A DNA stretch of 64,000 bases, taken from Roridomyces roridus. Its lineage: Eukaryota; Basidiomycota; Agaricomycetes; Agaricales; Mycenaceae. A model generated the notes under the pieces. That model saw only the letters and a list, made by a program, of their open reading frames with translations. It was not told the origin of the DNA and made no database searches. This document shows, piece by piece, positions 48,426-52,198 of this stretch. Numbering within the stretch: the first letter of the stretch is position 1; each line of letters opens with the position of its first letter. The DNA lies in NCBI GenBank assembly GCA_029378245.1, contig JARKIF010000006.1:434001-498000 (forward strand), given 5' to 3'. The position numbers and the translations under genes are program-made.

Positions 48426-51087
48426 TCAGCCAGTCAACGTACCTATCTCCCGCTCCTGCGTGAGAGCCGGCATACCGCCCAAATCCACCAACGCGATTCT
48501 CGTATCCGCCGAACTATCCGGGAAATACAACCCATCACCCATCTTCTCCCCACCATCCCGTCCACGCGAAGCAGCCATAACAACGGTAGGGAGATCGTTG
48601 TAGTCGAACACGGGAAGCGCCAACCATCCGCGAGTGCGCCACAATTCGACGAGGAAGATGCACAAAACGAGGGCGTTGAGCGCACCTATTGCGGCGATAT
48701 ACCGACGTTCGCCGATCCGCATCGCTGGGAGGATCTGCTGCGTCGAAACGGCGGTGATCATGGACGAGGACGAGAGAGCCCCGATTTCGAGCTGCGCGCT
48801 TCCAATGCCGACGAGGACGTCGTCGATCATGGACTCGAGCGACGCGGCTACGGCTGCCATGACGGTATCGGTGTCGTTGACTGCGGTGCTGTGTTCCGTG
48901 GCGAGGTTTTCGATGCTCGTCATGAAGACGGTGCCGAGCGCGGAGGTGTAGAGATTAGTGTTCATCATGGAGAGGAAGGTGACTTGGCGCATCGTAAGCT
49001 GCGCGATACTCCCAAGTCCAACGCCGAATTGCGAGGAAGTGGGATCCATGTCCTCGACCGAAGACTCTGGGAGGAGCGTGACGTTGATAGCACGACTCGT
49101 CATGTTGACGGAGACGTCGAACTTGGAGGGATTGAACTGCACCTCGCATTGAACCTGGTTGAGGACATTGTACGGCCCGTCCCCTGTGGCGAACGCGAAA
49201 ATGTTGCTCGGTGGGTGCGATAAGCCAACGAGAGCGACGATTTGGGAGTCGTTACGCAGCCCCACCGTGGCGTAGTCCTCGACTGAGATCAGCGAGGTGG
49301 TTGGGTTGATTGGGCTATTGGGTAGGGGACCGATTGCGAGGTATTCGTTTGGATACGTTCCGTCGGCGCTGATATATGGCACATATACTGTAAAAAAATT
49401 ATTGGGACTCATTTGGATGGCATGTGCATATGGTAACCCGGGTTTCGAGCACAACTCCAGGTTGGTCGACGTTTGGAGTACAACATTTCTTACGGTTTCA
49501 ACTTGGTTCCAACAACTCCCCGGATTTCAACCTCCATGGTGTGGTGTAGTGCCGTTAGCTAGAATGCCGATTGATTGAGTATCGGCAGATGTGATGGTGC
49601 AGAGGTTCGGTTCAAAAGATAAATGGCAGATCAAAATATTCAGTTGGCTTGCACTGCCAGATTTGATGCTCTGCCTCGTATGAATTTTCTTAAAAGACTC
49701 AGGGAAGCATCATATCAACTTCCAAAGTGGTTGGGCATTAGGTGCAAGACAGAGAAAGTAAGCATTCCAACAAGTTCGGAATACTTAGCCTATCAGTATC
49801 GCATCACTGCCAACATTATCGGCACATCGGCAGAATCACGAAGACTCTTTTTGAAAAGGAGTGAATATCCTGCAGATGTTATCCAAGACGCGACCCCCCA
49901 AGATGGGATCCAAACACCAAATTACAATTGAAATGCGACCCAGAGCCTGCACTCTGAAAGGGATGTAATCGTAGTAATTATTTTACAGTATATCGCCCAT
50001 ACTGATATTATGAGTGACAATCGTCCACAGAGAGCTCGCGTTCCTCGCACACGAGACAGTCGTGGAGTAGCCGGTCTCCTGGTAGCTGTAGCTCAGGACC
50101 GATGACGTCGTGTTGGAAGATGCCGCGGAGAGGATATCGAAGAAGCCGTCCCCCAAGCCGGCGGTCGATCCGACGCCGAAAGAGCGCCCGACGTAGGTTA
50201 ACCGACTGTTGTCGTTTTTGGGATGCCCGTCAGCTCTGCTCGTCGCCGTGGACGCAGAGTTCAAGATTACGCCCTGTAGAACGGGGGCGGGCGTGTAAGA
50301 GAAGGCACCCCGCGCGTTGCGCGTTACTGGCCACAGGAAGTCGCTAATGGTCGCCGTACTGGAGTGATTCCAGAACTGACTCTGTGGGTCGGGAGCGTAT
50401 ACGGGGATTTGTATGGAGCCGAGTACGGATGCGGTGGAGGAGATTGGTGTGATGGCCCCGGTCCAGAGCGCGGAGGGCAAGAGATGAACGATGATGTAAA
50501 GGCCAGCAATGATGATGTGCCGAACCGGCATCGTCCACGCTATTTGGGCGGAGGCAATCGACTGCCAAAGACGCAGTTCGGCCAGGGAGACTGAGCCTCG
50601 GCTCAATCGAAGGCGGGTCGATAGATTGATGATCGAGGTGAGTGTGACCAGTTGGAGGAGGCCCAAGATGTGTGAGATTATCGTGATTACGACCTGAACC
50701 CCTGTGCGATGGGCGGTGACAAAGGAATACAGTCCTGTGTGGTCGCGCCTGGATTCCGCTGCCACGGCGGCGGTCGCGGCTACCGCAATAACCAAGCCAG
50801 GGATTGGACGGAGTTTCGACTGAAAGGTGGCCCGGTAGGCTATTCGAACTTGCATCAGCATAGCGCCGGTTTCAATGAGAGAAGCCCCTACCACTGGGAG
50901 CGTTGTTAAGCCTCAGCATGGGGGCGGTGAAGAGGGAACGTCGCATATTCGCCCCAGGTTTTAGTTCGACGTTGTTCGGGCACGCGGGCCCGGCCGCTGT
51001 ACAGTAACGTCGGTCTCGTCCACGAGCGCAGATAGCTACCACGTACACTAGTAGTCTGCCGGTGTCATCGTTGACATAGGGTTGCAA
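48426..51087 (-). CDS. multi-pass membrane protein with large extracellular domain, interrupted by a MITE
   Basis: In N to C order: hydrophobic helices (PGLVIAVAATAAVAA, GVQVVITIISHILGLLQLVT, HIIIAGLYIIVHLLPSALWT), an extracellular domain with N-glycosylation sites (NHSST, NTTSSVLSYSYQETGYS, CARNASSLWTIVTHNISMGD), its continuation (YVPYISADGTYPNEYLAIGP, CEVQFNPSKFDVSVNMTSRA, FLSMMNTNLYTSALGTVF), a C-terminal TM helix (IAAIGALNALVLCIFLVELW) and a cytoplasmic tail ending at the stop 48426-48428. This resembles a family of large uncharacterised Agaricomycete membrane proteins. Between GDI and YVPY lies the 601-bp element 49388-49988. A GT-AG intron 49388-50002 would remove it in frame. The true N-terminus upstream of 50900 is not resolved; an extra 5' exon or a frameshift is needed. 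Confidence 0.65.
49388..49988. mobile_element. 601-bp MITE with TA target duplication
   Basis: The ends, read inward, are CTGTAAAAAAATTA (49388 onward) and CTGTAAAATAATTA (49988 backward), 13 of 14 identical. TA flanks both sides (ATATA before, TATAT after), as for Tc1/mariner-type elements. Removing the element plus one TA leaves the host codons GAT ATA TAT GTG in frame, so the insertion point is exact. Inside, on the plus strand, is an AT-rich open frame 49623-49931 (102 codons, starts MADQNIQLACTARFDALPRM), which I do not recognise; it is not a transposase. Confidence 0.88.
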
Positions 51088-51299: not shown

Positions 51300-52198
51300 C
51301 ACTGGGCGCAAAGCTATCGACATGTCACATCGACATGTGCTCACAACATGTCGCCCCCACTCCCTTCCCACTTGCCTCGACATGCGGAAAACACGTGGCT
51401 CGGCAGCATGGCGATTTCCTTCCCATTAGCTTCATTATTCTCACGAAGCATCTGATGGAAGGGATATCTCGATGGTCAGAACACATCCACGCCGAGATGC
51501 CGTGCATCACATCCGCACATTCCTTTTGCATAGAGAGTACTTGTTTCAGCAGGGGTCTAAATAATAAATTTCTCTTTGTATCACATAAGAGGGAAATTCA
51601 CCTCACGATGCATGTGTCTAAATTGCACAATCTCATGTTCCTCATCTCGTCCGTGCCTGATGCTTCCGAGCTGGAAAACTAAGTGCTTAAGCATTCGATC
51701 AAAGATAATGATGAGCAAAGAATCAAAATCACACAGAATTTTCCTGGTCCGGGCCAACCCCTCATAGAGGTTGGGAATTTTTGTGCTGCTAAAGCGCAGT
51801 GCGATTCCCGGTTGATAATGATTATTCTGCTTGTTGCCGTATGCACGGCACAAAACCTATTGGAGATCGATGGCAGCTGCAATCAGACCATCAATTACCT
51901 CATTAATGGACACTGAGTTGGGTGAATTCAGGCATATGTACATTCAGGGAAGCAAGAAAAAAACAGAGCCTCAGATGGAAAGCGGGCAAAAAACATTCAC
52001 AAGAATATGGGTTGTGATGATCAGCTGGCCGGCGATGAGGATCACAATTTTAGATGCCGATTTGTGGGTACCAATTTGAATCCTCCCACATGTGATGTCA
52101 CAGAACGACACGAGGCTAAAGCCACATGTCGAGTGCACTGGGAGCGACATGTTGTGAGCACATGTCAAATTGACATGTCGACTTGTTTGCGCCCAGTG
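51300..52198. mobile_element. CACTA/CMC-like non-autonomous transposon (899 bp)
   Basis: The ends are inverted. 51300 inward reads CACTGGGCGCAAA, then GACATGTC, then GACATGTGCTCACAACATGT. 52198 inward reads CACTGGGCGCAAA, then GACATGTC and the same GACATGTGCTCACAACATGT. A 3-bp duplication TGA flanks it (51297-51299, 52199-52201). A CACTG start, 3-bp duplication and subterminal GACATGT repeats are typical of the CACTA (EnSpm/CMC, including Plavaka-like) group. The AT-rich interior has no transposase. The paralogous empty site at 46545 confirms both boundaries. Confidence 0.92.

Follow-up and report, generated by a model that had tools for sequence, protein, structure and literature searches.

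Transposons of the IS3EU type at large carry TA..TA ends and target-site duplications (TSDs) that are usually 6 bp long, according to the available part of PMC10045372, and an excerpt of a second paper describes 6-bp TSDs and TAYGG..CCRTA ends for the IS3EU elements of rusts (PMC12730594). Introners have been reported mostly from aquatic lineages, and those of ascomycetes are without terminal inverted repeats (TIRs) and TSDs, as far as the accessible text of PMC9860276 goes. In metazoa, SOS splicing cuts transposable elements out of mRNAs, according to a review (PMC13247085, partial text). Among the literature matches listed, no title or abstract opening on IS3EU elements acting as introns was noticed, and the one paper that names Roridomyces roridus does not, in its title or the start of its abstract, deal with the genome of the species.

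Here we describe an element inserted in a gene of R. roridus, within a window of 64,000 nucleotides (the whole stretch of DNA analysed; coordinates are those of the window). The sequence-only reading had presented it as a 601-bp MITE with 13/14-matching ends and a TA duplication, lying exactly between ATA and TAT in the coding frame of a membrane protein, and had inferred that it is spliced out and could be an intron caught at birth. The features of the locus, as revised by our analysis, are as follows.

48426..50912, minus strand: host membrane-protein ORF, stop to stop, 617 codons once the element and a single copy of the TSD are removed; the public model starts at 50855.
49375..50001, minus strand (the host sense, with the T-tract at the element's 3' end): non-autonomous DNA transposon (MITE) of 627 bp with IS3EU-type ends TATGG...CCATA, its boundaries taken from the flanks of sister copies.
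49369..49374, no strand: target-site duplication CTGATA, copy 1.
50002..50007, no strand: target-site duplication CTGATA, copy 2, whose first plus-strand base is the G of the host-strand GT donor.
49975..50001, minus strand: 5' TIR on the host strand, TATGGGCGATATACTGTAAAATAATTA, which contains a possible donor GTAAAA at 49986 and matches the other TIR in 23 of 27 columns.
49375..49401, minus strand: 3' TIR on the host strand, ending in TTTTTTTACAG followed by TATATGTGCCATA and containing the proposed acceptor AG at 49388-49389.

The inner ends that had defined the 601-bp unit, CTGTAAAATAATTA and CTGTAAAAAAATTA, do match at 13 of 14 positions, but sister copies extend the match 13 bp beyond either end of that unit, and boundaries read from the flanks of 30 loci give a true length of 627 bp with host-strand ends TATGGGCGATATACTGTAAAA...TTTTTTTACAGTATATGTGCCATA. 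The break had been placed between ATA and TAT because the shorter boundaries were wrong, and its apparent precision is an artefact of them. The TIRs of the full element are imperfect, with similarity that fades beyond 27 bp. The supposed TA duplication is replaced by a TSD of 6 bp, as seen in the sister copies: among 75 copies distinct by flanks and length, taken from 89 paired ends in the loci examined, the TSD is exactly 6 bp in 53, 7 bp in 3 and absent in 19, the latter including nested copies and chimeric pairings. A Tc1/mariner-like TA duplication, implied by the earlier description, is ruled out by these 6-bp TSDs. The duplicated sequence shows some base preference, its first base being C in 26/55 cases and its last base G in 26/55.

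Paired ends of the family lie between 615 bp and 6.8 kb apart. One long relative, of 6837 bp (L032:1070-7906), has the ends of the window copy and a 6-bp TSD, and two of the nine ORFs scanned in it carry an rva_4 integrase domain (PF24764; E 1.6e-31 and 2.2e-22). This relative sits inside a copia-type retrotransposon and is a candidate source of transposase. Both IS3EU traits, the 6-bp TSD (in those 53 of 75 distinct copies) and the TA..TA or TAYGG..CCRTA ends (here TATGG...CCATA), are found in the family, and the element is filed as an IS3EU-type MITE, an assignment made by ends, TSD and long relative rather than by a tree of the transposase. Elsewhere in the genome, among the matches listed, related ends have CTGTGCAA / CTGTACAA instead of CTGTAAAA with at least 17 outer bp in common, and likely represent a sister subfamily. 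A second inverted-repeat element of about 899 bp lies nearby at 51300-52198, with ends CACTGGGCGCAAA...TTTGCGCCCAGTG and TGA on both sides, read by eye as a 3-bp TSD; it is presumably CACTA-like.

A BLAST search of the species' own genome (90.8 Mb, 501 contigs) gave at least 43 matched places, fragments included, of which at least 22 were at 98-100%; the copy count is a lower bound, 40 of 67 candidates having been scored. The window copy differs from each of four sisters (L002-L005) by 1 mismatch in 627, an identity from which the insertion appears to be very recent and the MITE family young. No empty allele or paralogous empty site was found within the assembly, where the host flank (1001 bp) matches only itself. 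Some copies on different contigs have identical 45-bp flanks, namely L014/L016 (C158/C57), L009/L011 (C168/C346) and L017/L020 (C224/C82), which suggests that the assembly has kept haplotigs or holds segmental duplications; unlike these, the window locus has no partner copy sharing its flank. Even if it is not spliced, the window insertion is a clear example of an IS3EU MITE family that is young and has transposed recently.

The host is a Mycenaceae membrane-protein gene in R. roridus. A Pfam search of its protein returned no family up to E 0.1, and seven relatives were found besides its own public model (P0001, FB45DRAFT_828647), five of them named Mycena. That a MITE interrupts the coding frame was correctly seen in the sequence-only reading, since the 617-codon ORF is open at the empty site and the segment around the insertion is encoded unbroken in 6/7 relatives, in a comparison of proteins in which an intron of the relatives at this position would not show. 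The comparison with the orthologous locus that it had proposed is thereby borne out in part, on proteins only and with the exception of P0004, a public protein of Mycena maculata without this segment. P0004 misses the same conserved stretch as P0001, perhaps through a gene-finder artefact or an insertion. When read unspliced, the frame of R. roridus takes up five element-derived codons (MGDIL) and then meets a stop at codon 309.

Taken as a whole, the locus is probably a recent, disruptive insertion of an IS3EU-type MITE into a gene, with incidental splice letters. On this reading, a non-autonomous element, whose mobilisation in trans would have relied on the rva_4 DDE integrase of a relative, has very recently entered a coding exon of the membrane-protein gene and duplicated 6 bp; unspliced transcripts would carry the MGDIL codons followed by the stop, and the allele would most likely be loss-of-function or truncating. 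The GT and AG letters around the element are most likely by-products of the TIR and the target sequence, and not evolved splice signals. The repeated element itself is beyond chance, and a frame-keeping GT-AG pair is not: 7/20 GT-AG pairs in the ranges tested restore the frame, and when insertions into this ORF were simulated (400 per class), one or more such pairs appeared in 94% of them in sense, 96% in antisense and 93% with a mononucleotide-shuffled element as control. Therefore, the frame-keeping pattern alone is no evidence of splicing, and the general lesson is that such pairs are nearly guaranteed around any insert. The idea that the insertion is tolerated because it is spliced out is left without support by a public model that differs, by the lack of CTRAY in the 100 nt before the acceptor and by a copy 1 nt from four sisters, and tolerance cannot be inferred at all from a copy so young. 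The intron caught at birth is likewise unsupported, as P0001 uses another junction and the public models at two other loci, L016 and L037, do not cross the element.

Splicing from the TIR donor GTAAAA at 49986, either to the AG in the TSD at 49369 (618 nt) or to a host AG at 49315 (672 nt), is unlikely. The second version is that of the public annotation.

49315..49986, minus strand: intron implied by public model P0001 (FB45DRAFT_828647), 672 nt, GTAAAA...CCTACCCAATAG.

Both pairs keep the frame, the 618-nt version with all host residues retained plus MGDIL, and the existence of P0001, which reads ...HNISMGDIL and then PINPTT... across its junction, counts in favour of this splicing and against a simple disruption of the gene. 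However, the P0001 junction drops 18 host residues, from a stretch present in 6/7 relatives, while adding the five of MGDIL, and could be a gene-finder's compromise. Fungal donors usually have a G at +5, which GTAAAA lacks, and the same donor is held within the TIR stem of the predicted RNA fold, where ACAG and GTAAAA are covered by 13 bp of TIR pairing (z -2.6, none of 20 shuffles as low). At L016 and L037, where the element is oriented as in the window and the TSD ends in G, the public proteins start only after the element; the L016 frame contains a stop before the element is reached, and in L037 the element falls at residue 45 of an ORF measured stop to stop, so that an intact coding exon is not assured at either locus. 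No consistent junction emerges among the public models of the three loci, and the window locus is a caution on gene models that span transposable elements.

Also quite unlikely is the intron that the sequence-only reading had put forward, in which the spliceosome would use GTATGG (the TSD G plus TATGG) and TTTTTTTACAG, giving a protein with six more residues.

49388..50002, minus strand: hypothetical intron of the earlier reading, 615 nt, GTATGG...TTTTTTTACAG, frame-neutral, +18 nt relative to the empty site.

The 3' TIR does supply TTTTTTTACAG on the host strand as described, and GTATGG is present where an exonic donor had been seen, but only its G belongs to the host (as part of the TSD) and TATGG is the end of the element. 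The splice from GT (50002) to AG (49388) is 615 nt long and in frame, as claimed; it does not remove 12 exon bases at the cost of four codons, but leaves 13 element bases plus the TSD, which amounts to 18 nt, or six codons, more than the empty site. In favour of this splice are the presence of both dinucleotides, the preserved frame and its geometry: for a TSD with a final G (26/55 TSDs), a GTATGG donor and an ACAG lying 13 bp inside the opposite end leave 18 nt at any element length. Moreover, the accessible part of PMC9860276 reports introners whose 3' splice site is their own and whose 5' site the TSD provides, as well as introners that add codons. Yet the exact 50002/49388-type pair keeps the frame at 20.5% of random simulated sites, and an intron of 615 nt would be much longer than the others, put at 42-80 nt in the earlier reading. 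Fungal spliceosomal introns generally have a GT donor, a CTRAY-like branch site, a YAG acceptor and a short length, and although GT and CAG are in place here, no CTRAY occurs in the last 100 nt before this ACAG acceptor in either orientation. The predicted fold also pairs the TIRs over ACAG and the donor UAUGGG with the exon, and P0001 has a different junction. Among ORF-based donor candidates, a noisy set, GTATGG occurs in 3/62 clusters, a point against the incidental origin of these letters. The ORF pairs themselves gave 572 GT-AG candidates, not above four control dinucleotide pairs (599-882), with CTRAY in 16.6% against 14.3-18.4% in the controls; because neither is commoner than in controls, no local consensus was drawn. 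The available part of a Cryptococcus paper (PMC11913375) yielded no branch consensus.

If the window intron were spliced, the family could be a basidiomycete proto-introner, a reading that we regard as very unlikely. A G-ending TSD would create the GTATGG donor, the TIR would bring the ACAG acceptor and exonic insertions could be neutral from the start, as splicing would always add 18 nt regardless of element length, orientation and host frame, at the 26/55 insertions whose target ends in G. At the level of the family, the median length of the spanning ORF is 149 aa both at 52 insertions and at background positions within those loci, and spanning ORFs of at least 250 aa occur at 15% of insertions vs 21% of background (n=52), so that this proxy, which uses ORFs and not annotated genes, shows no exon enrichment of the 52 copies. 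Sense orientation is not favoured (15/25, 6/12 and 5/8 at the three ORF cut-offs). Junction donors (n=51) were found in 14/25 vs 10/26 at 150 aa, 9/12 vs 15/39 at 200 aa (p 0.046, uncorrected) and 5/8 vs 19/43 at 250 aa; the 200-aa figure speaks against incidental splice letters, but the effect is absent at 150 and 250 aa, and enrichment in orientation and junction donors was dropped. In the four longest spanning ORFs, one of them a copia-type retrotransposon, the element is always oriented as in the window and a GT is present at the junction, which favours the 615-nt intron and weighs against a purely disruptive insertion. The count of copies by sense that had been suggested brought, with ORFs as a proxy for exons, further copies and these four fitting ORFs, but neither exon enrichment nor orientation bias. 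In a Pfam scan of 10/14 listed spanning ORFs, 4 of 10 had matches; L014 and L037 were searched otherwise and L033 and L065 were left out. Should RNA show the 615-nt junction at the window locus as well as at further copies, the family would be an incipient introner, a TIR/TSD-type introner in a mushroom and a DNA transposon with an insertion made frame-neutral by geometry.

Non-spliceosomal excision from the mRNA guided by paired TIRs, by analogy with animal SOS splicing, which is itself guided by TIR pairing, would fit the 13 bp of TIR that pair in the predicted fold, but is barely credible here, as the known system is animal and works with the RTCB ligase, and the tRNA ligase of fungi is a different one.

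As in the TSD/TIR introners of Symbiodinium and Aureococcus (PMC9860276, accessible part), the TIR could give a 3' site, the TSD a 5' site and codons could be added, but the window family is without long-ORF enrichment, splicing is only hypothetical here, and among the three public models examined the junction does not recur at another copy. Ascomycete introner-like elements share a fungal host with our element; in the parts available of PMC4457414 and PMC9860276 they are multiplied introns, said in the latter to be without TIRs or TSDs, whereas the window element is a cut-and-paste MITE. The rust (TET+) families of IS3EU/GingerRoot are reported with TIRs above 30 bp; in the window element TIR similarity covers 27 bp (23 matches) and then fades, and the window copy is non-autonomous. 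With IS3EU/GingerRoot the family has in common its 6-bp TSDs, TATGG...CCATA ends that match TAYGG..CCRTA, and an integrase-type transposase in a long relative.
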